Shown: piece by piece, positions 3,400 to 20,351 of the stretch
Position numbering within the stretch: position 1 is the stretch's first letter
Layout of the letters: the number at the start of each line of letters is the position of its first letter
Origin: a virus
DNA length: 20,351 bases
Virus record (IMG/VR): IMGVR_UViG_3300032309_000360
Span: 1-20,351 of that record
Reading direction: 5' to 3' (one strand)
The notes under the pieces: generated by a model
The model's database searches: none
Seen by the model: only the letters and a program-made list of their open reading frames with translations
Told to the model about the DNA's origin: nothing
Made by a program: the position numbers and the translations under genes

Positions 3400-3723
3400 C
3401 TATTTAGAAGCGCGTAACTGAGCAAGCTGTTCGGCTGCCGTTTCAAGTTCGCGCGTCTTAGCTGCTTGCTCTTCGTCCGTCATTGGGCGAACACTGTGAA
3501 CGTCTTTTACAACGCCATCGACCCATTGATAGGTGACGCCTTCGTATACCTCGTAAATGCCGATTGCGGGTTGATCCACGCGGACAAATTTAGCAAAAGT
3601 GTCTGGTAGGTTTGCCGTGTCCGCGTCGGGGAACGCTGCGCGAAAGTTGTCCGCGAAAATCGGATGCTCATGCGGCTGACCGTTACGGATTTGAATGTAA
3701 AGTTCAAGGTCGGTACGTTCCAT
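3400..3723 (-). CDS. Conserved phage protein of unknown function, 107 aa (fibre region)
   Basis: The protein starts MERTDLELYIQIRNGQPHEH. It has a compact first part with FADNFRAAFPD and LPDTFAKFVRV, an aromatic middle (YEVYEGVTYQWVDGVVKDVH) and a C-terminal helix (MTDEEQAAKTRELETAAEQL). The form N-terminal strand region, then V-K-D-V-H, then M-T-x-E-E-x-x-A-K helix, is common in small proteins encoded beside phage fibres. I suspect a fibre-assembly or fibre-associated role, not proven. GGGGAA lies seven bases before the ATG and the upstream adhesin stop directly abuts it, so the two are coupled. The stop is TAG. Confidence 0.65.
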   Translation of the reverse strand: MERTDLELYIQIRNGQPHEHPIFADNFRAAFPDADTANLPDTFAKFVRVDQPAIGIYEVYEGVTYQWVDGVVKDVHSVRPMTDEEQAAKTRELETAAEQLAQLRASK

Positions 3724-4890
3724 TTATAGGTTCCCCGTATTAGTAGATGGGAAAGAGCGCGAAGTTCCGGGCCAAATAATGCGGACTGCGCCGCCGCCGC
3801 CAGTGCCGTTACACGCGCCACCGCCGCCGTAAAGGCCGCCGTTGCCGCCGGGTTGGCTGTAGCCTGCCGCGCCCTGCGCGCCGCTTGCGCCCGAAGACCC
3901 CCCAGTGCCTCCGCTGCGCCCCGTGCCTCCAGTGCCGCTAGTCCCCGAACCAAGAATACCGACACCGCCGCCGCCGCCGCCGCCGCCTTCTGATGAGCTA
4001 TATGTTGCCCCGCCGCCGCCGCCGCCGCCGCCGCTGCCGCTGCTGCCGGTCCCATGATCGGAAGTACCAGAACTACCTCCGTCACCGCCGGCACCTGTGT
4101 AGCCACCCGCGCCGCCGCCGCCGTTAGAGGGAGTTGGTGCGGCTACGTAGCGTTGTCCGTTGCCGCCGTTGCCGCCAGTACCCACGCCGCCGCTGCCGCC
4201 CGCGCCGCCGCCATTAAACGCTGCACGTCCAGCGCCCCCGCCATTGGCAACAACGGTACTACTATTAAAGGTAGACGCGCCGCCGTCTGTCCCCGCACTA
4301 CTGCCGCCGTTGCCGCCAGCCCCTACAACCACGGCGTAGGTGTTACCGGGGATAACTGTTATATTATTAACATACCGAAGCGCACCGCCGCCGGCGCTAC
4401 TGCCATAACTATTTTGGCCATCACCACCGCCGCCTGCGCCGACCGCAACTACCGAAACAGAAGTAACCCCGGCAGGGGCCACCCAGCTATATGTACCAGC
4501 GGTGGTGTACGCGTCTTGTCCAACTACCGCAGGTGTTACGCTGTTACTCGGTGCGCTTGCTGGACCCGTACCAGTTGCGTTAGTTGCAGTTACCGTGAAA
4601 GTATAAGCAGTGCCTGTAGTCAGCCCAGTTACCGTTATCGGCGAAGATGAACCAGTGGCTGTAATGCCCCCCGGACTTGAAGTGACTGTGTAACCTGTAA
4701 TAATTGGCGGCACACCGGGATCGACAGGTGCGGTAAACGCTACTGAAGCTGTGGTCGCCGTAGAAGATGTAGCCGTAACACTTGTGGGTGCGCCGGGTAG
4801 AACGCCGGCGGGTCCGCCGCGCGTAGACAGCGAAGTAGAGGCCTTTAAGCCTATACCTAAACCATTACGAACGGGGATGCCAAAACTCAT
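3724..4890 (-). CDS. Adhesin-like fibre protein: fibronectin type III plus glycine-rich domain, 388 aa
   Basis: Residues about 32-120 form a fibronectin type III-like domain, starting PGAPTSVTATSSTATTASVA, with ITGYTVTSSPGG, the LTTGTAYTFTVTATNATG strand pair, and closing SAPSNSVTP. Residues 128-156 are a short beta lead-in (YTTAGTYSWVAPAGVTSVSV). Residues about 150-370 are mostly Gly with Ser, Thr and Ala, encoded by long GGC runs; the end reads AVRIIWPGTSRSFPSTNTG, a closing motif I recall from other phage Gly-rich proteins. Gly-rich domains of this type form polyglycine-II bundles in T-even gp38 adhesins, so receptor binding is a reasonable inference. The start overlaps the upstream stop (ATGA); no good Shine-Dalgarno is seen. 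Confidence 0.75.
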   Translation of the reverse strand: MSFGIPVRNGLGIGLKASTSLSTRGGPAGVLPGAPTSVTATSSTATTASVAFTAPVDPGVPPIITGYTVTSSPGGITATGSSSPITVTGLTTGTAYTFTVTATNATGTGPASAPSNSVTPAVVGQDAYTTAGTYSWVAPAGVTSVSVVAVGAGGGGDGQNSYGSSAGGGALRYVNNITVIPGNTYAVVVGAGGNGGSSAGTDGGASTFNSSTVVANGGGAGRAAFNGGGAGGSGGVGTGGNGGNGQRYVAAPTPSNGGGGAGGYTGAGGDGGSSGTSDHGTGSSGSGGGGGGGGATYSSSEGGGGGGGGVGILGSGTSGTGGTGRSGGTGGSSGASGAQGAAGYSQPGGNGGLYGGGGACNGTGGGGAVRIIWPGTSRSFPSTNTGNL

Positions 4891-5582: not shown

Positions 5583-5834
5583 CTATTCTCCAAGCGCGGT
5601 AATTTGGGCTTGCAGCACCTGAAGCTGTGCAAGGAGTTCTTCTTTGGTGGGTGTCGGTGGAGCAGGCGCCGGTTCAGGCGCGGGGCGCAAGTCTACAAAC
5701 GCGCCGTTAACGTAAGTCCATCCGATACCCGCCTCTTCAGGTAGTTCCACCCAGTTTTGCTCAGAAGCGTATTCAGTCTCGGCTAAAACTGCATTAACAA
5801 CAGTCCCGTTTTCTATGATTGCGTATTTAGCCAT
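5583..5834 (-). CDS. Small fibre-associated protein with C-terminal helix, 83 aa
   Basis: The start at 5832-5834 (MAKYAIIENGTVVNAVLAET) has GAGGA seven bases upstream; an ATG 21 bases earlier lies in the previous gene and is less likely. The N-terminal half is a small beta domain with WVELPEEAGIGWTYVNGAFV, then a Pro/Ala linker (PAPEPAPAPPTPT) and a helix ELLAQLQVLQAQITALGE. This three-part form is common in small proteins next to phage fibres and is often annotated as tail-fibre or assembly related. The stop TAG overlaps the ribosome-binding region of the next gene. Confidence 0.7.
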   Translation of the reverse strand: MAKYAIIENGTVVNAVLAETEYASEQNWVELPEEAGIGWTYVNGAFVDLRPAPEPAPAPPTPTKEELLAQLQVLQAQITALGE

Positions 5835-5844
5835 GTTACGTTCC

Positions 5845-6897
5845 TCAATATTCAATCACAACGACGCCGTTGCCGCCTGACGTGCTGCCGCTGCCACCAG
5901 CCCCAATAGTAACGGTTAAAGTGTTGCCTGGAGTTAGGTTTTTTAGATAAGAAATTGCGGTACCGCCGCCGCCGCCGCCGCCGCCGGGGGCGGTGCTAGT
6001 GCTGCTTGACACGCCTGCGCCGCCGCCGCCATAATTACCACCAGAACCCGCTTGACCGCCTCCACCAAAAAATGAACTTCCGCCCGGCTGCCAACCCATA
6101 AATCCGTTTTGACTTGATGATTGTCCGGGATCACCACTAAAGTTTAAATTGCCCCCAGAAGCACTGCCACCAGCGCCCCCCGTTGACCCGTTATTACTTG
6201 GTCCCCCTGCGCCGCCGTTTCCAGTTATAGTGCTTATAGTTTGCGTACCAGAAGCTAAAGAAGTATCTCCTCCCGCGCTACCAGCACTGCCGGGTTGACC
6301 GCCTCCGCCGCCGCCGCCGCCAATGACCGTCACTTTTATAGTAGCTATGCCCGCGGGAATCGTAAACGTTCCAGAACTTGCAACAACCGTCAGATTTTGA
6401 AATGGTGCCGCTGGTGCGGCTGCACTGGTCCACGTTGTCCCATTGCTGGTAAGTAAATTACCAGATGCCCCCGGCGCAACTGCTTGCAACGCTGAAGTGC
6501 CATTACCTAAAAGAACGTTATTAGCCGTGAGCGTCGCCGCGCCTGTACCGCCGTTTGCAACAGGCAACGTACCCGTTAGGTCGCTTGTTGGAATTGTAGC
6601 TGAACCAGTTAAAGGTGAAGTGCCGCTACCCTTAACGTAACCAGTTAGCGTTGACGCGCCTGTACCGCCGTTAGCGACAGGTACGTTAGTGACAGCCAGC
6701 GTTCCGCCAGACAACGCCAAGGCCGTACCTGCACTAATTTCTTCGGCAGCGCCTGTGCCAGCAGTAGTGCGGCCTAGCAACCTATTGGTGGCAAGCGTCA
6801 GTTGATGCTCTGCGTTCCAATTAGATGGCTGAACAATCGTTGCGTCGGCGCTGTCAATTTTGGCGGACTGAAAAGTATGTTTAAGGCTTACGGGCAT
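5845..6897 (-). CDS. Tail-fibre-like protein with glycine-rich C-terminus, 350 aa
   Basis: The N-terminus (MPVSLKHTFQSAKIDSADAT) with QPSNWNAEHQLT is typical of phage fibre proteins. Residues about 40-70 read LLGRTTAGTGAAEEISAGTA, a common fibre repeat. VANGGTGA occurs at about 74-81 and 113-120, a 39-residue repeat typical of fibre shafts. From about 175, SSGTFTIPAGIATIKVTVIG leads into a Gly-rich domain ending GNTLTVTIGAGGSG and VVVIEY. The Gly-rich end resembles that of the FN3 adhesin at 3724-4890, so the virion may carry two related adhesins. The ATG overlaps the portal stop by one base (TAATG) with AGGA eight bases upstream. Confidence 0.75.
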   Translation of the reverse strand: MPVSLKHTFQSAKIDSADATIVQPSNWNAEHQLTLATNRLLGRTTAGTGAAEEISAGTALALSGGTLAVTNVPVANGGTGASTLTGYVKGSGTSPLTGSATIPTSDLTGTLPVANGGTGAATLTANNVLLGNGTSALQAVAPGASGNLLTSNGTTWTSAAAPAAPFQNLTVVASSGTFTIPAGIATIKVTVIGGGGGGGGQPGSAGSAGGDTSLASGTQTISTITGNGGAGGPSNNGSTGGAGGSASGGNLNFSGDPGQSSSQNGFMGWQPGGSSFFGGGGQAGSGGNYGGGGAGVSSSTSTAPGGGGGGGGTAISYLKNLTPGNTLTVTIGAGGSGSTSGGNGVVVIEY

Positions 6898-9667: not shown

Positions 9668-9930
9668 GAGCATTTCCACCTTTTCAAACTAGCTTTGGCG
9701 CGTTCGCCGTTCTTAGCCTTGGCTGCTACCGCACCCATGCGCGCACAAAACGACGCTTTGCGGCCTGCATCCGCTTTTGTCTTCGGGTTGGGTGCAGGTG
9801 CCTTTAACTTGCTGCCTGTCGCAGCATTATACTTGGCTCTGCCAGCGGCTGTCAGTCCCGCGCCCTTTGACACAGGCAATTTCTCGCCCCTGCCAACGGA
9901 TAGCGACACCGATTTTTTCTTGTCCGCCAT
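9664..9930 (-). CDS. Small basic Cys-containing protein, 88 aa
   Basis: The protein starts MADKKKSVSLSVGRGEKLPV and continues SKGAGLTAAGRAKYNAATGS, then KTKADAGRKASFCARMGAVA and ASLKRWKCS. I recall a family with the pattern L-T-x-x-G-R-x-K-Y-N-x-x-T-G-x-x-L-K-x-P, then R-x-S-F-C-A-R-M, then A-L-x-K-W-x-C in phages and bacteria (possibly DUF6321; not certain). Two conserved Cys could bind metal. The start at 9928-9930 overlaps the terL stop (TAATG); an ATG 15 bases earlier is the alternative. It shares ATGA with the next gene. Confidence 0.75.
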   Translation of the reverse strand: MADKKKSVSLSVGRGEKLPVSKGAGLTAAGRAKYNAATGSKLKAPAPNPKTKADAGRKASFCARMGAVAAKAKNGERAKASLKRWKCS

Positions 9931-11465
9931 TAACTGCCCATCCACGATGTAGATATTCCAGAGGAAGAATACGCGCTTACGCGGCGGTTGTCAACGCGCG
10001 ACAGACGCGGATCGGTAGATGCCACAGGAAACGCGAACGTGACCGCTATGGCGTCCGCTGCGTCAGGCGATGCTAGGCCGCGCGCCTTCATATCTTTCTT
10101 GCTTTCGAGGAACAGCGTACCCTTGCTGTCAGGCTTAGTGCGCGGACTGATGAGGTCCGTCTTTAGGAAGCGGTCACTCGGTATGTGGCCTGTTTTCAGC
10201 CAATCCCGCATGGCACCCCACATCTCTGCGCGTTTGTTGCCCCACATGGTCTGGTTCTTAGCCTTATTGCCGAAGTTCACGCCGCGTATCTTGTACCGCT
10301 GTTCCTTCAGTCGGTCTACGACGCCTGCACCTAGCCCGCCTTCGTCGATGCAGACCAGCGCAGGCTTGTACTGCTCTATGGCGTCGATGACGTGTCCAGC
10401 CACTTCCATAGTGTCTGCGCCGCGGTGTCTCCGTAGTTCCAAGATGTCACGCCCTTGGCGCACAGCAATGACGGTAGCGTCAGCCCCGAAGCGTGCAGGG
10501 TCAACACCTATGACGATGGGCGCTGTGGCATCTTTAGCCGGTGTGCGCTTCATGGCATCATCTACCAGATTGCTTCCAATGAACTGATCGTCACCTTCTG
10601 ACGGGAAATTACCGTAAACTTCGACGCTGGCTTGGTAGCTGTCTGGCCCATATTCGTCGATGATGCGCTGATACAGGTTTTTATCTGTACCCTCGACATC
10701 GCGTGCGTCGATGACGCGTGTCTGCCAGAACGCCCGCTTGCTGTGGAAGGTTTCGTAGAAATAGCCAGTGTTCCGCCGCGGGTTGGAAAAGGCCAGATGG
10801 AAACGATGCGGCGTATTTTCTGTGAAGAAACCGTCGCTGACAGACCATATCGAGTCTGGAATACCGCTGGCTTCGTCGAAGATCAGCATCACACCGTCGA
10901 AGTTGTGAACACCAGCGTATGCGTCAGGGTTTTCTTCCGACCACAGCCGGCCCTCGACTGACCAGTAGCGCGTACCTTTCTTCAAGTCCCGCTCGACCAG
11001 TTCTGTCAGCCACTTGGCTGGCATGATGCGTGTGGCTGCTATCTCGAACCAGTGACTGTTAAGGCTCATTGCCAGCCACTTAGTTATTTCTGCCCATGTT
11101 ACGGACCGCAACTGCGCCTCGGAGTTGGCCGACACGATGGTGGTCGAGCCGATCCGTGACGATAGCATCCATATCGTCAGCCATGACACTAGCGCCGACT
11201 TGCCGATACCGCGGCCTGACGCAATCGCCAGCCGCGCAGTGTCGAAGTCAACCTTGCCGTTGTTCGCCTTGATGTGGTCGCGCAGGTCGCCGAGTATCTG
11301 ACGCTGCCATTTGCGCGGTCCGGGGAAATGTTCCAGCGGTGTGCCCTGCTGTCCCCACGGGAATGTATATAATACGAAAGCTAGTGGGTCATCCTTCAGG
11401 CTGGGTGACCACAACCTTGCCATCAACTCCATCTCGTCTTGCGCTGAGTATATCGGCTGCTGCAT
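9930..11465 (-). CDS. terL: Terminase large subunit, 511 aa
   Basis: TerL cuts concatemeric phage DNA and drives it into the head through the portal. The ATPase has Walker A at about residues 82-91 (ASGRGIGKSA) and Walker B with catalytic acid at about 193-200 (MLIFDEAS), followed by the coupling-motif area SNPRRN. The C-terminal RNase H-like nuclease is shown by IGVDPARFGADATV (first Asp near 322), LVCIDEGGLGAGVV (second near 374) and LASPDAADAIAVTFAF (third near 468-471). The length fits P22-like TerL (about 500 aa). Its start lies inside terS, 77 bases before the terS stop, in another frame. A GGAT about ten bases upstream is the only ribosome-binding candidate, so coupling to terS is likely. 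Confidence 0.95.
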   Translation of the reverse strand: MQQPIYSAQDEMELMARLWSPSLKDDPLAFVLYTFPWGQQGTPLEHFPGPRKWQRQILGDLRDHIKANNGKVDFDTARLAIASGRGIGKSALVSWLTIWMLSSRIGSTTIVSANSEAQLRSVTWAEITKWLAMSLNSHWFEIAATRIMPAKWLTELVERDLKKGTRYWSVEGRLWSEENPDAYAGVHNFDGVMLIFDEASGIPDSIWSVSDGFFTENTPHRFHLAFSNPRRNTGYFYETFHSKRAFWQTRVIDARDVEGTDKNLYQRIIDEYGPDSYQASVEVYGNFPSEGDDQFIGSNLVDDAMKRTPAKDATAPIVIGVDPARFGADATVIAVRQGRDILELRRHRGADTMEVAGHVIDAIEQYKPALVCIDEGGLGAGVVDRLKEQRYKIRGVNFGNKAKNQTMWGNKRAEMWGAMRDWLKTGHIPSDRFLKTDLISPRTKPDSKGTLFLESKKDMKARGLASPDAADAIAVTFAFPVASTDPRLSRVDNRRVSAYSSSGISTSWMGS

Positions 11466-11898
11466 GGTGTGTGTTATCCTCTAGCTGCGCTGGGGGCGTC
11501 ACGTCAGTGTACAGCCCTTCGATGACGCGCGACTGTGCTTTTTCCAGCGCGCCTGTGATGCTTATCTGTTGGTCGATGTTTACGTCGATCTGCTGCTTGG
11601 CTACCCAGCCGTGCTGATGCTTAAGTATCTCTAGCGCAGCCTTGCTGTCGCCATCGCGTGCCGCCTCGTACATAGTCTTGGCCGCGGTCATCTCGCCGTC
11701 GGCACGACCTTTGATCTCCGCCATCTCCACCAGCGGGTCCGCATCCGCCAGCACGCGGAACTGCCGCGGGGTTAATCCAGCGGCCATAGCGAGGCTGTCA
11801 CCTTTTAGGCCGTAGCGCGCAGCTTCATAGATTGCCTCTAGCCGCGCCTCGGTGGCCTGCGTCCGCTCTGGTGTGAATGGCAGTGAGTAGAAAGTCAT
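11389..11898 (-). CDS. terS: Terminase small subunit, 169 aa
   Basis: TerS recognises the packaging site and regulates TerL. The protein starts MTFYSLPFTPERTQATEARL, with a DNA-binding-like helical N-terminus (LEAIYEAARYGLKGDSLAMA followed by AGLTPRQFRVLAD, a helix-turn-helix layout in which LTPRQFR would be the recognition helix), a central helix pair (KTMYEAARDGDSKAALEILK then HQHGWVAK), and a short oligomerisation region (QQISITGALEKAQSRVIEGL). Q-x-x-V-x-x-x-x-x-I after H-x-x-G-W is common in TerS. The start at 11896-11898 is preferred because a strong promoter lies just upstream and its transcript would begin at about this ATG. An upstream ATG at 11920-11922 adds 8 residues but lies inside the promoter. 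Neither has a Shine-Dalgarno. Confidence 0.8.
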   Translation of the reverse strand: MTFYSLPFTPERTQATEARLEAIYEAARYGLKGDSLAMAAGLTPRQFRVLADADPLVEMAEIKGRADGEMTAAKTMYEAARDGDSKAALEILKHQHGWVAKQQIDVNIDQQISITGALEKAQSRVIEGLYTDVTPPAQLEDNTHHAAADILSARRDGVDGKVVVTQPEG

Positions 11899-11905
11899 TG
11901 GGCGT

Positions 11906-11934
11906 ACTATAGTGTGTTGCATTCTAATTTGCAA
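11906..11934 (-). promoter_or_regulatory. Leftward late promoter before terS, with AT-rich UP-like element
   Basis: TTGCAA (11929-11934, 4 of 6 matches) and TATAGT (11906-11911, 5 of 6) lie exactly 17 bp apart. T/A tracts directly upstream (about 11935-11950) look like an UP element. The expected start, 6-8 bases after the -10, falls at or next to the terS ATG at 11898, which gives a leaderless or nearly leaderless message. It would drive the whole leftward structural operon. Confidence 0.6.
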
Positions 11935-12178
11935 AAAATAAAAAATTGTTTGCGGACCTACCCGCGACAGTCACGCGGCCCACCGGCCCTACCCCCACCC
12001 CTCCAGCATTATGTTAAATTCAATCTGGCGTTGTGGCTGGCTGGCTCACGCTTGCGTTTGCTGGCTTGCGTTGCGCTACGCGATTAGCGTTCTTGTTCTG
12101 TTCTGGCTGGATTAGAAATGGCCTTTCCCTTTCCACGTTGCGAGCGGTTCGCAAAAACACATCTGCTAGCTGGCTAGC

Positions 12179-12190
12179 TACGCGCGCGTA
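12179..12190. repeat. 12-bp perfect palindrome TACGCGCGCGTA
   Basis: TACGCGCGCGTA reads the same on both strands. It directly follows two GCTAGC hexamers (12165-12170 and 12173-12178) and is flanked by the direct repeat AAAAACACAT (12153-12162 and 12190-12199). It could be a protein-binding site. Confidence 0.6.
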
Positions 12191-12225
12191 AAAACACATA
12201 GGCGGTTTAGGCTATGCGATCGCGT

Positions 12226-12271
12226 GTCATGACTGCGTAGGTCATGACGTCATGACTGCGTAGGTCATGAC
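12226..12271. repeat. Two tandem 23-bp repeats built from a palindromic octamer
   Basis: Units 12226-12248 and 12249-12271 are identical. Each is GTCATGAC, TGCGTAG, GTCATGAC; GTCATGAC is its own reverse complement, so four palindromic half-sites lie at 12226, 12241, 12249 and 12264, with 15, 8 and 15 bp between their starts. The layout suggests two dimer-binding sites side by side. Confidence 0.95.
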
Positions 12272-12303
12272 TGCTTTACGTTCGCGTAAGGTTTGAGGGT
12301 AAG

Positions 12304-12330
12304 TTAGGCTATTTAGGCTATTTAGGCTAT
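12304..12330. repeat. Three tandem copies of TTAGGCTAT (iteron/operator-like)
   Basis: The 9-bp unit occurs at 12304-12312, 12313-12321 and 12322-12330 without gaps. A fourth direct copy is at 12207-12215 and two inverted copies are at 12419-12427 and 12494-12502. Copies on both sides of the AT-rich block suggest binding sites for one regulator or initiator. Confidence 0.9.
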
Positions 12331-12355
12331 CGGGTTTCAGTTGCCCTAAAAGCAT

Positions 12356-12383
12356 TTGTAACACTGTATCATAACCATATAGG
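12356..12383 (+). promoter_or_regulatory. Weak candidate rightward promoter for the early genes
   Basis: TTGTAA (12356-12361) and TATAGG (12378-12383) are 16 bp apart, each with 4 of 6 consensus matches. It points to the early genes but leaves over 200 bases of leader. No better rightward promoter is visible. Confidence 0.25.
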
Positions 12384-12386
12384 TTA

Positions 12387-12415
12387 ATTATATCATTTCA
12401 TCACTAACTTAACAT
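12387..12415 (-). promoter_or_regulatory. Leftward extended -10 promoter inside the repeat region
   Basis: On the minus strand TGATATAAT (12387-12395) is a perfect extended -10 (TGnTATAAT). The -35 at 17 bp (ATGTTA, 12410-12415) matches poorly, which extended -10 promoters tolerate. Transcription would start near 12380 and run through the TTAGGCTAT triplet towards terS, giving about 480 bases of leader. A TTAGGCTAT copy in inverted orientation (12419-12427) lies just upstream and three copies lie just downstream, well placed to repress it. Confidence 0.5.
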
Positions 12416-12468
12416 CCAATAGCCTAAACCGCCAATCCACCCTTCAAAGCCGCGGGAATCTGCCGTTT

Positions 12469-12517
12469 AAAAATAGTCATTTCGCCTAATCCCATAGCCT
12501 AACAAATGACTATTTTT
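12469..12517. repeat. Perfect 14-bp inverted repeat with 21-base loop
   Basis: AAAAATAGTCATTT (12469-12482) and AAATGACTATTTTT (12504-12517) are exact reverse complements. The spacer holds an ATAGCCTAA copy (12494-12502). The stem has A/T at its outer ends and little G+C, so it is more like an operator or origin element than a good terminator, though a weak bidirectional terminator is possible. Confidence 0.9.
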
Positions 12518-12596
12518 CACCCGGTGCATTTTTTTGTTTGCAAGTACCCTCAAACTATGCGACGGAAGGCTTGCAACACATTATGAGGCAAAACAA

Positions 12597-12812
12597 ATGC
12601 AAAACTACTTTGAAACGTTAAACGCCGCTCTTGATAGCGAAAGTTTGATCGATATTTGGCCTATCACTGCAAGCGTACCATATGGCGCGACTATCGGCTT
12701 TGCGATCGCCGGGCGCTGGATATCTATCTATCGCGACGGTGTCACCGGCTTGTACGAGCGCCCGGTGCACTATGCGACGCTAATGCCAGACACCGGCCTA
12801 ATCCACCTTTAA
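12597..12812 (+). CDS. First early gene, 71-aa protein of unknown function
   Basis: The start at 12597 (MQNYFETLNAALDSESLIDI) is chosen because GAGG lies eight bases upstream; the frame is open further upstream only through non-ATG codons in the repeat region. The protein continues WPITASVPYGATIGFAIAGR, then WISIYRDGVTGLYERPVHYA. It looks like a small alpha/beta protein: one helix, then three or four strands with R-Y-E-R-x-V-H-Y-A-like end. Similar small proteins occur in early regions of phages, with no function known to me. It is first in the rightward operon. Confidence 0.65.
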   Translation: MQNYFETLNAALDSESLIDIWPITASVPYGATIGFAIAGRWISIYRDGVTGLYERPVHYATLMPDTGLIHL

Positions 12813-12843: not shown

Positions 12844-13548
12844 ATGACACTTCACCAGATACAATTTACCCGCACAAGCCGCAATTCAAAAACTGGCCCC
12901 ATGCCAGTCACTACAACGTCAGAGGAGAGTTGCCCGCAAGCTTGCCCGCTTAAGTACAACGGGTGCTTTGCCGATAGCGGACCGCTTGCGTTATTGTGGC
13001 GCAAGGTAACCGAGCGCAAGGCTGGCATTGCTTGGGATAGCGCAATGGCAGAGATTACCAAGTTACCTAAAGGTACGTTGTGGCGCCACAATCAAGCCGG
13101 CGACTTGCCCGGTGTAGGTGACGCGATCGACGCAAACGCGTTGCATCAATTGATAAACGCTAACAGAGGCAAGCGCGGCTTTACCTATACGCACAAGCCG
13201 GTGTCGGTTAACGCGGATCCACAACATGAAGCAAACGCGCATAGCGTCGCCTATGCCAATGCTAAAGGCTTTGCTGTTAACTTATCGGCCGATAACTTAG
13301 CAGAGGCCGATGCATTAGCAGACTTAGAAATAGGGCCAGTTGTTGTTGTGTTGCCTAGCGATCAATTGACGGCAACAGAAACGCCTAGCGGGCGCAAGGT
13401 AGCAATCTGCCCGGCGGTACTGTCCGACAACGTCAATTGCACAACTTGCGGCTTGTGCGCCAAAATTGATAGGCTTTCGATTATTGGTTTTCCCGCTCAT
13501 GGGACAAGCAAGCGCAAGGCAAGCGCCGTAGCAATGGGAGCGAATTGA
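12844..13548 (+). CDS. Cysteine-rich conserved phage protein of unknown function, 234 aa
   Basis: The protein starts MTLHQIQFTRTSRNSKTGPM. Cys at 30, 34 and 41 form C-x3-C-x6-C (SCPQACPLKYNGCFA); Cys at 189, 199, 202 and 205 form a second group with C-x2-C-x2-C (NCTTCGLC). Between them are LWRHNQAGDLPG (80-90), GFTYTHKP (112-119), FAVNLSADNLAEAD (143-156) and GPVVVVLPSD (164-173); after them IIGFPAHGTSKRKASA. I recall this layout from uncharacterised phage proteins (a DUF, perhaps DUF7227; mycobacteriophage gp88-like proteins share the CP-x-x-CP...GC(Y/F)A start). Seven ordered Cys suggest zinc or Fe-S binding, and the alternating strands and helices suggest a barrel-like enzyme. Both are inference. 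It is the largest gene of the early block. Confidence 0.8.
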   Translation: MTLHQIQFTRTSRNSKTGPMPVTTTSEESCPQACPLKYNGCFADSGPLALLWRKVTERKAGIAWDSAMAEITKLPKGTLWRHNQAGDLPGVGDAIDANALHQLINANRGKRGFTYTHKPVSVNADPQHEANAHSVAYANAKGFAVNLSADNLAEADALADLEIGPVVVVLPSDQLTATETPSGRKVAICPAVLSDNVNCTTCGLCAKIDRLSIIGFPAHGTSKRKASAVAMGAN

Positions 13549-16339: not shown

Positions 16340-18685
16340 TCAATTCTTGCCTAAGTTTGACATTGTGTTTGGCTTAGGCAGTTCGTCCGCCATGCGGCGC
16401 AACTCAGACTTGCTGTGCATCTTAACAATATCAGGCGCGACAAAGATGTGCTTTTTGGTTGGTAGTTCAACTGAACCTACCCGCCCCATGTCAACCCAAC
16501 CAGCTTCCTTCAACGCATGAAGCAGCGCCGCCTGCGGTATCTTCACGCCAGCAGGGACGTTGATCGCCAGCGCATCGCAGATACGATGGAACGGCCCACC
16601 AATGACACCATCGGCAAACACGCCCGACTTCGCACGCATCAGGTCTACCAGATAGCTTTCTGCTACGCTCATGCCATGCTCGACCATGTTTAGCTTCCAT
16701 TCGGTCACTGGTGGTGCAGCAGCAGGGTTGAACGCCGAAACGTCACGCTGATGCAGCCAAGCGGCGCACTTCTCATAGCCGCCACTCTCATACCAGCCCC
16801 ACAGCGCCTTAGCTGCTGGCACTGACATACGCGGCGCACGCGTCCACACGCAGAACCAGCGGCGATCTTGCGTAGGTAGCGTGATAGGCAGCGGATCGTT
16901 AGTGTATGCAATCACCATCAGGCGGTTGACCAACTCATAGGGATGCATCCCCTTGCGGTTGACCGACAGCGTTTCAGGTGGCGCAGCGATGAGCGGCTTT
17001 AGTTTGTTAGCCATAGCGCGACGTTCGCGTGCCTCTGGCTCCTTTAGTTCGTTTAGGATGACAACTTCAGCTTCAAGCGCGTAACCCCACTGGCTGTCCA
17101 AGCCGCCGGCCTCAATGACTGACCGATTGCGCCAATGCTTACCGCCCAACGCCCACAGGAACGGCTGGAACATACTATCCTTACCCGCGCCTTCATCGCC
17201 GCCGATCAGGATGGCATGATTAATCTTGACGTTAGGGTTCTGTATCTTGAACGCCATAGCGTTAAGGATGTGGTCTAGTTCGGCATCGTCCGCGACCAGA
17301 TTGCGGCAATGCTCTAGCCAAGGCTCAACGTCATGGTCGGCGATTACATCGCTGCCCGACACGTCAGGGCGTGCGTTTGTCCAGCGGTTGCCGTAGACCA
17401 GCCCGTCACGCGTCACCAGCACGTCATCGCCAGCGGCGAACGTCACAGCCGACAGCGCAGGCGCACCGCGGTCTTGACGGCGCTCATCAAAATAGATGGA
17501 TGACTGCACGCGCTGCGTCTTCTTGTGGATGGAACGGCAGTCAACGTGACGGAACAACGCGTTAAAGACGTTGCGGGCTATCTCTTGACGTGTGACCATG
17601 TCAAAGTAGCAGTCATCGGACTGGATATAAGCGAAACGCTCGAACCATTCGTTTTGTTCCAGCCGTCCTGCTTCTTTCTTTTCGACCTCACGCACACGCG
17701 CTGCGGCCTCATCGGGGAACGCTTCGGTAGGCACTATCTTGTCCATCATCGACGCCATGCGTTCAGCGATTAGTTCGTCACGCAATCCGGGCGTCACCTT
17801 CGGGCCACCTTCATTGGCTACCCAATCAAGAAACGTGCGGCTGTCTAAGTCTTGGCAATGGCCGTGGTAGCAGCAGAACGAACGATCCAGCGGCTTGTAG
17901 CGCGCCTCAATCATGCCGTCGCTGTGTTCCGCATGGTTAGGACACACAATAGCGCACCAGCCGTCAGCGTTAGGCGCGCTAAGAACAAGGCTGTTTTCGT
18001 TAAGCCATGCAAGGACGTTGTCCTGTCCTGTGTCGCGCAGCAGCACCGCCTTATAGTCGGCTGTGTCGCCTTCTTCCGGCGTGACGCCTAGCGCATTGCA
18101 TATCTCATCCAGTGTGTATTCACGCTCTGGGTGAAACTCGACCAGCCGTGCAGGGAAGTTGCCGCGGCCACGCTTCATGTTGATGCTGCCGGGGATACGA
18201 CAGTTGCGGACAGCGTTAGTCGCGCCCGGATCGGTGTAGCCTGCGTCCGCGATGGCTTTGATGGCAGCGCAGAAGTCGCCCTTGCGTGGCTGTTCGCTGA
18301 ACGCGTAGCCCCACTGGAACGAACCTTCGCTGGTTTCCAACACCCATGTCGGCTCAAGCGGCGGTGTCTTAGACTTCGTGCCAACGTCATCCAGCATCAT
18401 GAACAAAACATATTCGACGTTGCTGCTCTTGGCTGCTGGCTTGCCGTCAACAAAGCGGTCAACGATGAACGCGCCTGTGTTGACATACCAAGACTCGCCT
18501 TCCTTTATGCGCGCCTTGTCAGGTATGAACGCAGGAAAGGTAGCCGATGGCACGCCGTCAGCATGGTAGATGATGTTACCATCAGGGTCATACTTAGGCT
18601 TCTGACGTAGCAATAGCGCCGTCTCGCCGTTCTCTGTGGCTAGACCAGTGACGTATTCGATAAACTTGATGCGATCCTCACTCAT
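16340..18685 (-). CDS. Primase-helicase (primase-polymerase-like N-terminus, zinc region, SF3-type helicase), 781 aa
   Basis: The start at 18683-18685 (MSEDRIKFIEYVTGLATENG) is supported by AAGGAG six bases upstream, which overlaps the polymerase stop; an ATG 21 bases earlier lies in the polymerase gene. Residues about 50-200 resemble phage/plasmid RepB-like primases (YVLFMMLDDVGT 92-103, SEGSFQWGYAF 119-129, RNCRIPGSINMKRG 160-173). Residues 248-277 hold a metal-binding-like CPNH ... CCYHGHC. The helicase has Walker A at 495-504 (GGDEGAGKDS) and Walker B at 541-547 (VVILNEL), then RRWFCVW of the DUF5906/P4-type helicase core. It unwinds and primes DNA for the polymerase encoded just before it. 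The first acidic position of the usual D-x-D is not evident (MMLDD), so primase activity is less sure than helicase. Confidence 0.85.
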   Translation of the reverse strand: MSEDRIKFIEYVTGLATENGETALLLRQKPKYDPDGNIIYHADGVPSATFPAFIPDKARIKEGESWYVNTGAFIVDRFVDGKPAAKSSNVEYVLFMMLDDVGTKSKTPPLEPTWVLETSEGSFQWGYAFSEQPRKGDFCAAIKAIADAGYTDPGATNAVRNCRIPGSINMKRGRGNFPARLVEFHPEREYTLDEICNALGVTPEEGDTADYKAVLLRDTGQDNVLAWLNENSLVLSAPNADGWCAIVCPNHAEHSDGMIEARYKPLDRSFCCYHGHCQDLDSRTFLDWVANEGGPKVTPGLRDELIAERMASMMDKIVPTEAFPDEAAARVREVEKKEAGRLEQNEWFERFAYIQSDDCYFDMVTRQEIARNVFNALFRHVDCRSIHKKTQRVQSSIYFDERRQDRGAPALSAVTFAAGDDVLVTRDGLVYGNRWTNARPDVSGSDVIADHDVEPWLEHCRNLVADDAELDHILNAMAFKIQNPNVKINHAILIGGDEGAGKDSMFQPFLWALGGKHWRNRSVIEAGGLDSQWGYALEAEVVILNELKEPEARERRAMANKLKPLIAAPPETLSVNRKGMHPYELVNRLMVIAYTNDPLPITLPTQDRRWFCVWTRAPRMSVPAAKALWGWYESGGYEKCAAWLHQRDVSAFNPAAAPPVTEWKLNMVEHGMSVAESYLVDLMRAKSGVFADGVIGGPFHRICDALAINVPAGVKIPQAALLHALKEAGWVDMGRVGSVELPTKKHIFVAPDIVKMHSKSELRRMADELPKPNTMSNLGKN

Positions 18686-18695
18686 CGCTTGCTCC

Positions 18696-20351
18696 TTATT
18701 TGCCATAACGTTCCATAATTGCCACTTCAGCGTTCAGGGGTAGCCCTGCTGCCCAAGCTGGCGGCTCACACATAATCTGCACCAGCCGCTCTGCTGCGGC
18801 TTCGGCTTCATCTTCTGGCACTTCCAAGACGATTTCATCGTGGATGTGCAGCACTACGTTGTCCAACCGACGCAAGGCGTGACGCAGCAAGTCGTTGGCG
18901 ACAGCTTGCGTGATGTTTTCACACGCCAGACCGCGCCACAGCCGCGCCCTTGGCCATTCTTTCGCGTCTGCGGCTGGCTTCCAAGAAGCCTTCGCGTAGG
19001 TCAGATTGCCTTCCTCGTCGAAACGAGCGAAAGGATAACATAACACACGGCCAGACGGAAGGGCATACCAAAGATGCAGTCCGTCAAATAAATATGTAAT
19101 GCGGCCAACGCTAAACTCGCGGCCCTTGTTCCGCATGGCGCGCATATAAGTTTCTTCAAGGCCAGCCCAGTAAGGCACAGCCCACTTGTTAGCCCTGCGC
19201 CATGCGTCCACCATGCGCTTCGCGTCGCTCTCTGACATCATCAGGCCGTAGATGCGCCCCATGCTGGCAAACGCACCGACACCGCCGGCGAAGCCACAGG
19301 CCAACTCTTGAACCTTACCAATCTGGCGCTGGTCGTTGTTGACATCGGTATAACCGACATGGAAGGTCGCCATAGCGTTGTGCTTGTAGACATCCTCACC
19401 CTTGGCAAAGATGTCCAGCTTGTTCGCACCAAAGACGCTGTTGGACGCCCACGGCGTCACCCGCGCTTCGATGGCGGCCCAGTCAGCGACGATAAGCTGC
19501 TTGCCTTTGTCAGCCATCAGCGCAGGGCGCAGCATACCTTTCAGCACGTCGGTTACGCGGCGGCCATACTCAGGGACAATCTGGTGACCCCGCACCATAG
19601 CCTGCCGCACTAATGCAGGGTCTGCGGCGCACTTTCTTGGGAAGTTATGGACCTGAAGCCCATATGATGAAGCGCGGCCAGTAGCGCTACCTCCTGCAAA
19701 TACGAACGCTCCTCTAACGCGAAAATCTTCCTCATCAGCGAGCGCCGCTGCGCGTTGGAACTTCGCAACGGACGATGCCCACAGATCGTCCGCGCACTGG
19801 ATGACTTCGGCGACTTCCGCTGGGACTTCATCTGGGTTCTCCTCTGCCAACACAAGTAAGTTGGCGCGCACGTTCTTGTCAATGGACAGTTTCTCGACGC
19901 CGTCCTTCATCACGGTCGCCACGGCTACAGCCTGCGGCCCTACCCTAGCTAACACCCAATCCTTCATCTTCGGGCTGCGGACGGACTTAATCTCGCCGTG
20001 CGTCACCTCTGCGACAATGGACTGTATCTCAGTCAATTCAGTCTCAGCGTAGCGCACCGCTGCCTGCGCCAATGGACGGTCCAGCAGCACGCCGCGGTCG
20101 TTGATGCGCTCGTTGACGTGATAGTCGGCCAACTCATCAGCCGACAGCGGACGCTGCGCCTGCGCGATAGCGCGCATGGCCCGCACGTCCTGTTCGCAAT
20201 AGTCAACCATTTCCTGCATCAGCGCCGCATCCTCACGGAACGTGCCGTCAGCTTGCGGGATGGACAGCAGGCGGATCAGTTGACTGCCGCGATGGTCTTT
20301 CTTCATGGTCGCGCCAGCAAAGCGCCCGACATCCTCTAGGCTACCCGGCGC
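18696..20351 (-). CDS. Family A DNA polymerase with 3'-5' exonuclease region (partial at 5' end)
   Basis: The frame is open to the right edge, so the N-terminal part is missing. The visible start includes exonuclease-like residues (LEDVGRFAGATMKKDHRGSQ upstream of VDYCEQDVRAM, the Y-x-x-x-D Exo III motif). Polymerase motifs follow: motif A LIVADWAAIEAR (metal Asp), motif B DQRQIGKVQELACGFAGGVG (R-x-x-x-K with aromatic/Gly finger helix), motif C VVLHIHDEIVLEV (H-D-E, metal residues). The thumb/finger sequence GSATGRASSYGLQVHNFPRK is typical of phage polymerases of this type. The last residues VAIMERYGK end at TAA eleven bases before the primase-helicase ATG. It copies the phage genome. Confidence 0.93.
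   Translation of the reverse strand, partial: APGSLEDVGRFAGATMKKDHRGSQLIRLLSIPQADGTFREDAALMQEMVDYCEQDVRAMRAIAQAQRPLSADELADYHVNERINDRGVLLDRPLAQAAVRYAETELTEIQSIVAEVTHGEIKSVRSPKMKDWVLARVGPQAVAVATVMKDGVEKLSIDKNVRANLLVLAEENPDEVPAEVAEVIQCADDLWASSVAKFQRAAALADEEDFRVRGAFVFAGGSATGRASSYGLQVHNFPRKCAADPALVRQAMVRGHQIVPEYGRRVTDVLKGMLRPALMADKGKQLIVADWAAIEARVTPWASNSVFGANKLDIFAKGEDVYKHNAMATFHVGYTDVNNDQRQIGKVQELACGFAGGVGAFASMGRIYGLMMSESDAKRMVDAWRRANKWAVPYWAGLEETYMRAMRNKGREFSVGRITYLFDGLHLWYALPSGRVLCYPFARFDEEGNLTYAKASWKPAADAKEWPRARLWRGLACENITQAVANDLLRHALRRLDNVVLHIHDEIVLEVPEDEAEAAAERLVQIMCEPPAWAAGLPLNAEVAIMERYGK

Follow-up and report, generated by a model that had tools for sequence, protein, structure and literature searches.

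A small bacterial virus very probably has its replication origin in the repeats analysed here. The window, that is the whole stretch of DNA under study, is a virus record of 20,351 bases. With high confidence, although without binding or replication data, we read the repeat array as the origin of an environmental podovirus and its iterons of about 9 nt as sites for the virus's own primase-helicase. An iteron-type origin had already been suggested by a sequence-only reading of the window, and comparison with related phages supports this idea: as far as alignments can establish it, the array keeps its position, the iterons covary with the initiator at its wing and not elsewhere, wing residues predict the iteron across clades, and DnaA boxes are enriched in the array regions of relatives. 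By the same comparison, array and initiator wing were shown to evolve as a matched pair, and a readable correspondence between amino acids and DNA points to a partly decoded wing-DNA code. Physical binding, contacts between wing and DNA, melting and a bidirectional start are inferred.

The repeat array in the window and its relatives

The repeats lie beside a gene in the small-terminase position, which served as the positional anchor for the array in relatives. To the right of 12597, small rightward genes are followed by the leftward primase-helicase and family-A DNA polymerase genes (Table 1). One early protein, encoded at 12844-13548, carries DUF7227 (E = 5e-91). A scan of GTDB genomes returned one metagenome-bin contig only, and the host therefore remains unknown.

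Table 1. Coordinates of genes and sequence features in the window.
Feature	Position	Strand or orientation	Remarks
Terminase large subunit	9930-11465	leftward	PHROG match
Gene in small-terminase position, left of array	11389-11934	-	relative annotated as terminase small subunit in OR003940.1
Non-coding stretch	11935-12596		between the small-terminase-position gene and the rightward genes
Iteron array	12197-12502	forward copies left, inverted copies right of A/T block	six TTAGGCTAT plus degenerate copies
TTAGGCTAT copies	12207, 12304, 12313, 12322; 12419, 12494	+; -	
Degenerate iteron-like copies	12197; 12482	+; -	absent from the sequence-only reading
15-nt inverted repeat	12201-12215/12419-12433		
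Two tandem 23-nt units GTCATGACTGCGTAGGTCATGAC	12226-12271	+	absent from the sequence-only reading
11-nt inverted repeat GTTTGAGGGTA	12291-12301; 12545-12555	+; -	right copy just upstream of first rightward gene
A/T-rich block	12351-12415		73% A+T peak at 12360-12419; proposed DNA unwinding element
14-nt inverted repeat AAAAATAGTCATTT/AAATGACTATTTTT	12469-12482/12504-12517		flanks rightmost inverted iteron; found again in L015 and L018
First rightward gene	12597-12812	+	right border of non-coding origin region
Primase-helicase, 788 aa	16340-18706	-	AEP primase (RepB_primase), D5/NrS-1-type helicase (DUF5906), C-terminal winged helix
Predicted winged-helix domain (residues about 701-774)	16385-16606	-	AlphaFold2 models and winged-helix matches
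Wing codons 744-750 (GSVELPT in window)	16457-16477	-	744, 746, 748 and 749 track iteron sequence
Family-A DNA polymerase	18696-20306	leftward	

All repeats described in the sequence-only reading were found letter for letter at the coordinates it gave. The repeats in the window are real and far above chance: one 9-mer occurs six times in 12100-12600, against a maximum of four in 1000 dinucleotide shuffles, and the longest inverted repeat measures 15 nt, while shuffles (n = 300) reached 13 at most. No further copy of TTAGGCTAT was found outside the array in the whole window. Within the window, 9-mers reach their highest multiplicities in repetitive glycine-rich coding regions (3551-4250 and 5751-6450). 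The 15-nt inverted repeat lies where stated but does not constitute an element of its own, because its arms are doublets of a degenerate ATAGGCGGT and TTAGGCTAT in opposite orientation. Each of the tandem 23-nt units holds one copy of GTAGGTCAT (12237, 12260), a word that serves as the iteron in some relatives, together with GTCATGAC palindromes; in the absence of binding data, these units are probably further or ancestral binding sites. The motif ATAGGTTA(A/T) occurs at 0.26 per kb in the array regions of relatives and at 0.004 per kb elsewhere.

A terminase search of IMG/VR retrieved 80 relatives with 76-98% identity in the best segment, and two more scans extended the set to 146 non-redundant loci. 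Most of the relatives from the terminase search, podoviruses from IMG/VR, carry at this position, upstream of the gene for the small terminase, an array of repeats of about 9 nt around an A/T-rich block; such arrays were seen in relatives with terminase identities of 76-97%. The window and its relatives thus show what is required of an iteron origin, namely a short repeat in several copies next to an A/T-rich segment outside coding sequence. The repeat word itself differs, often between phages with terminases that are about 95% identical. Iteron words in relatives are TTAGGCTAT or CTAGGCGAT, CTGGGTCAT, TTGGGTCAT, GGACGTCAT, GTTGTCAA/T, GTAGGTCAT, TGTGGACAA, TGTGAGTCAT and TTCGGCAGT, and the words that switch between close relatives also include GTTGTCAT, TGTTAGTCAT and others. 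Repeats with other words occupy the array position in the database phages MW202483.1 and OR003940.1 as well. At least eight iteron classes were distinguished, 30 of 124 arrays resisted classification, and parsimony on the core tree (94 tips) requires at least 34 class changes. The sequence-only reading had held that free variation of the repeats between related phages would refute an origin. The repeats do vary strongly, yet they do so in step with the protein that reads them and not freely.

Three loci (L137, L139 and L147) combine the helicase wing GRIACVDHPT with arrays in which TAGGC, TGGGC and TGGGTCAT words are mixed; these arrays resemble intermediates between two specificities. Arrays of TTGGGTCAT were also seen in two short contigs, L453 (3997-4221; with a different terminase) and L484 (3593-4011; with a sliding-clamp/RusA-like gene). 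Both lie outside the recognised group and are too short for a helicase to be seen; this type of origin may be present in other phage groups as well. A further candidate, L497, was rejected as an array, being a repetitive coding region. Satellites borrowing the origin were likewise rejected: in an exact-pattern scan with TTAGGCTATTTAGGCTAT, every contig that had three or more copies close together was a member of this phage group, and the other TTAGGCTATTTAGGCTAT contigs showed one tandem pair, in some cases with one additional distant copy, and none of the group's recognised genes.

Covariation of the iterons with the primase-helicase wing

Mutual information between protein columns and iteron class was calculated for nine proteins over the loci containing both array and helicase. 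Columns of the primase-helicase near 744-750 reached 1.13, 0.96, 0.76 and 0.74 bits, out of a class entropy of 1.96. Elsewhere, the best column gave 0.16 bits in either terminase subunit and 0.27 in the polymerase, and no column of five early proteins exceeded 0.33. The early proteins, both terminase subunits and the polymerase were rejected as iteron readers on account of this weak association; the product of the gene in the small-terminase position did not track the iteron class. Because iteron changes track its wing residues, we take the primase-helicase to be the reader, and judging from these alignments it is most likely the initiator. The earlier suggestion that an unknown early protein fills this role was not borne out. 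A cognate, repeat-specific initiator encoded by the same replicon is another mark of an iteron origin, and here it is satisfied on covariation alone.

In the alignment motif GR-(I/L/V)-X1-S-X2-(D/E)-x-x-x-KKH, X1 and X2 vary with the iteron; in the window they are Gly744 and Val746. The pair G + T/S/V occurs with TAGGC(T/G)AT, G + K with GTAGGTCAT, H or A + V/I/T with CTGGGTCAT, A + G/S with TTGGGTCAT, A + A/H with AAATTGTCA, N + K with GACGTCAT or GTTGTCAT, K + R with TGTGGACAA or GTG(A/G)GTCA, and M + R with TGTTAGTCAT. Some pairs take two words: N/K is found with ACGTCA and TTGTCA, and K/R with GTGGACA and GTG(A/G)GTCA. The first iteron base is T in 340 of 343 cases with an A/G or A/S wing and C in all 36 with A/T, A/I or H/V; A/V is mixed, with C in 24 of 29.

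The association was also tested free of class labels, by comparing the k-mer content of the array with each of 539 helicase columns within core-identity strata. The top four columns were 744, 749, 746 and 748 (r = 0.40, 0.29, 0.28 and 0.17), against a background standard deviation of 0.05 and a largest value of 0.05 in 200 permutations. Among disjoint matched pairs with a core identity of 0.85-0.975, residue 744 differed in 27 of 30 pairs with different iterons and in 3 of 38 with the same iteron (p = 2e-12); for residue 746 the counts were 24 of 30 and 3 of 38. Synonymous codon choice at 314 residues that hardly vary showed no association (mean r = 0.00, sd 0.036). The synonymous codon of the invariant Ser745, which lies between the two variable residues, showed none either (r = 0.018), and this argues strongly against linkage.

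When wings were taken from proteins less than 75% identical in the core, their residues predicted the iteron class across clades in 80% of cases; taking the protein nearest in the core gave 35%, and random choice 13%. About 20% of these predictions failed. In contigs fetched by DNA pattern alone, TTGGGTCAT arrays were accompanied by an A + G/S wing (44/44), CTGGGTCAT arrays by A or H + V/T (5/5) and TTAGGCTAT arrays by wing G (6/6). Some of these contigs were already in the set, and many of the wings were new. Equal wing-iteron pairs are also shared by distant lineages, namely L271 and L317 with TTAGGCTAT and L265 and L299 with TTGGGTCAT.

Both AlphaFold2 models of the C-terminal domain predict a strand (701-703), two helices (706-714 and 725-735) and two further strands (738-743 and 752-756), at middling confidence (pLDDT 73 for the C-terminal 150 residues and 71 for the whole protein). 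A Foldseek search with this domain gave no significant PDB match. A second PDB comparison returned mostly winged helices, with weak scores (Z 4-6), and we call the fold a winged helix because of this topology and these weak matches. P4 alpha was not among the matches of the C-terminal domain, which excludes nothing. The candidate recognition helix, AALLHALKEAG, is nearly invariant, and in the models the variable specificity residues sit in the wing loop 744-751. We infer from this arrangement that the shared helix may contact the constant part of the iteron and the wing its variable part. The N-terminal domain matches AEP primases (S-2L PrimPol, Z 15.2; RepB', Z 12.3) and the middle domain the helicases of NrS-1, SaPI5, D5 and AsfvPrimPol (Z about 8-12); a sequence-profile search also matched NrS-1 over the AAA+ helicase (E = 1e-9).

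Probable origin function and competing explanations

Judging by its domains, the protein linked to the repeats is a replicative primase-helicase. The perfect DnaA box TTATCCACA was counted 70 times in the 146 kb of array regions and 6 times in 2005 kb of other sequence, an enrichment of about 160-fold, and boxes were present at 50 of the 146 loci. The reversed control word gave 0 and 17 occurrences, respectively. Arrays with the TGTGGACA iteron were excluded in a further check because that iteron resembles a DnaA box; 32 boxes then remained in 29 of 111 loci, most commonly in the context GTTATCCACAGATTTATT and close variants. The window contains no DnaA box, even allowing one mismatch; such boxes are not needed by all iteron origins.

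In the mechanism that we propose, winged-helix domains would dock on the iterons on either side of the A/T-rich block, and helicase rings would then assemble in opposing orientation. The block would melt, helped in many relatives by host DnaA at a nearby DnaA box, and the primase-helicase itself would unwind and prime the DNA for the phage family-A polymerase. Opposed iteron orientation is clear in the window. Across the set it barely exceeds a random-sign null (0.83 versus 0.78), and bidirectional loading is therefore only a suggestion.

Cumulative GC skew, which the sequence-only reading had named as a check, did not have its extremes at the array in 12 complete or near-complete relatives, and this neither supports nor refutes an origin. 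It does leave room for another role of the same contact, in which the primase-helicase binds the iterons for replication control (copy counting or incompatibility) and initiation takes place elsewhere. Some plasmid and phage systems have origin iterons and separate control iterons (P4 crr, F incC). We nevertheless consider this very unlikely, as the A/T-rich block and the DnaA boxes are located in the array region itself and no second array of the same iteron was found in near-complete relatives with a well-fitting motif. In most near-complete relatives the iterons are nearly confined to the array, with 0-2 stray copies where the motif fits; in G010 the motif used did not fit its array.

The array also separates leftward late from rightward early genes, and it could be a transcriptional control region, with operators for a phage regulator and no replication role. 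The 11-nt inverted repeat belongs to a separate repeat class, enriched toward the early promoter side. GAGGG(T/C)A, which in many relatives lies close to where the early genes begin, reaches 0.99 per kb in array regions and 0.15 elsewhere (6.7-fold). Given this position and this enrichment, some regulation at the array is likely, and the GAGGG(T/C)A repeats are a probable operator for an unknown regulator. As a full account of the array, control of transcription is very unlikely: the iterons track the replicative primase-helicase and none of the early proteins tested, DnaA boxes are strongly enriched, and promoter-like matches are few. In several relatives, GAGGG(T/C)A was seen as direct copies near a TTGACA-like early promoter. 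GTTAACGTAA palindromes (CTTTACGTTAACGTAAAG) were about 250-fold enriched in array regions, for example in the relatives L018 and L032.

To a packaging start (pac or cos) read by the small terminase we give almost no weight. The array does directly adjoin the terminase genes, but both terminase subunits lack the strong association of the helicase wing, and neither an A/T-rich block nor DnaA boxes would be expected at a packaging site. Hitch-hiking, in which array and helicase gene recombine together without direct contact, is as good as ruled out, for although phage genomes recombine and the two lie about 4 kb apart, the intervening genes are weakly associated (at most 0.33 bits), the synonymous codons beside the wing show no association, and distant lineages have reached equal pairs.

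Comparison with known systems and the switching of specificity

An origin read by the C-terminal domain of a primase-helicase has several partial parallels. P4 alpha joins primase, helicase and a C-terminal winged-helix origin-binding domain and acts at short repeated origin sites, according to PMC4234260 (citing Ziegelin and Lanka 1995; Yeo 2002). Its primase is of the Toprim type (PMC4234260), whereas the protein of the window has an AEP fold and does not qualify as Toprim. As in satellite phage P4, a single protein would carry a C-terminal winged helix (by model topology) with the specificity residues inside it. We know of no wing-iteron code or rapid switching in P4. For SaPI Rep and SCCmec Cch2, PMC7581432 (citing Ubeda 2007) states that the C-terminal domain of the helicase recognises iterons and that two hexamers have been proposed. 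The helicase fold of the window protein matches the SaPI5 primase-helicase (Z 9.1), and here too covariation falls in the C-terminus. The SaPI origin lies directly downstream of rep, however, while in the window the array (12197-12502) lies beside the terminase genes, about 3.8 kb from the helicase gene end at 16340, and the element is a phage and not an island.

The primase-polymerase of phage NrS-1 shares AEP, AAA+ helicase and a C-terminal tail (fold Z 11.6), and this tail (619-718) is among the winged-helix matches of the C-terminal domain of the window protein. The tail is termed novel in the NrS-1 paper (PMC7102993), and a term search of that paper returned no origin or iteron. Plasmid pRN1 ORF904 likewise combines an AEP primase, an SF3 helicase and a C-terminal winged helix, but the pRN1 origin is a stem-loop without iterons (PMC4234260); the window has an iteron array and no large stem-loop, only a modest 14-nt inverted repeat. 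Each of P4 alpha, SaPI Rep, pRN1 ORF904 and NrS-1 has part of the architecture, and none combines every feature.

Changes of specificity are described in two other systems. In the Vibrio PLE, the DNA-binding domain of RepA and the origin iterons co-vary and cognate pairs are required; the phage nuclease Odn targets PLE iterons and is thought to drive the change (PMC8263062). There, whole domain-plus-origin modules are swapped and the known types are few, while here a few wing residues vary inside a conserved domain, with at least eight iteron classes. In geminiviruses, iteron positions are conserved, their sequences are diverse and the cognate Rep matters (PMC12548392); these are plant ssDNA viruses with an unrelated rolling-circle initiator. 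In one relative (L007, MW202483.1), an HNH endonuclease gene (27644-28090) reminiscent of the origin-targeting nuclease Odn lies between the terminase genes and the array, and L049 has an apparent coding sequence in the same place.

We tentatively propose, as a possibility that could well prove wrong, that the code is evolvable: a few wing residues of the initiator would set the 9-nt word, arrays would convert via mixed intermediates such as those of L137, L139 and L147, and selection would hold close relatives on mutually incompatible origins. The selection might come from rival phages, from parasites or from nucleases that target origins. Escape from such nucleases, from parasites or from co-infecting relatives could plausibly cause the switching of specificity, as the case of PLE and Odn suggests by analogy.

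The components of this system are known in kind, and the rapid switching of specificity at the level of residues appears to be new. In the literature covered, we found neither a residue-level wing code nor rapid switching of specificity in tailed phages described; this is no proof of novelty, since most subscription journals lay outside the coverage.

Pairs of initiator and origin mostly appear fixed, and it is an open question by what route a replicon can alter its origin specificity and survive. The phages described here offer a natural experiment on this question, repeated many times among close relatives; it has left at least eight solutions that can be read, along with what look like intermediates. 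The residue-to-base code that they suggest is directly testable and may provide orthogonal initiator-origin pairs for synthetic replicons, and origins of environmental phages may become assignable from sequence alone. For the phage group itself, the array and its reader would offer a case, open to measurement, in which conflict may have driven origins to diversify.
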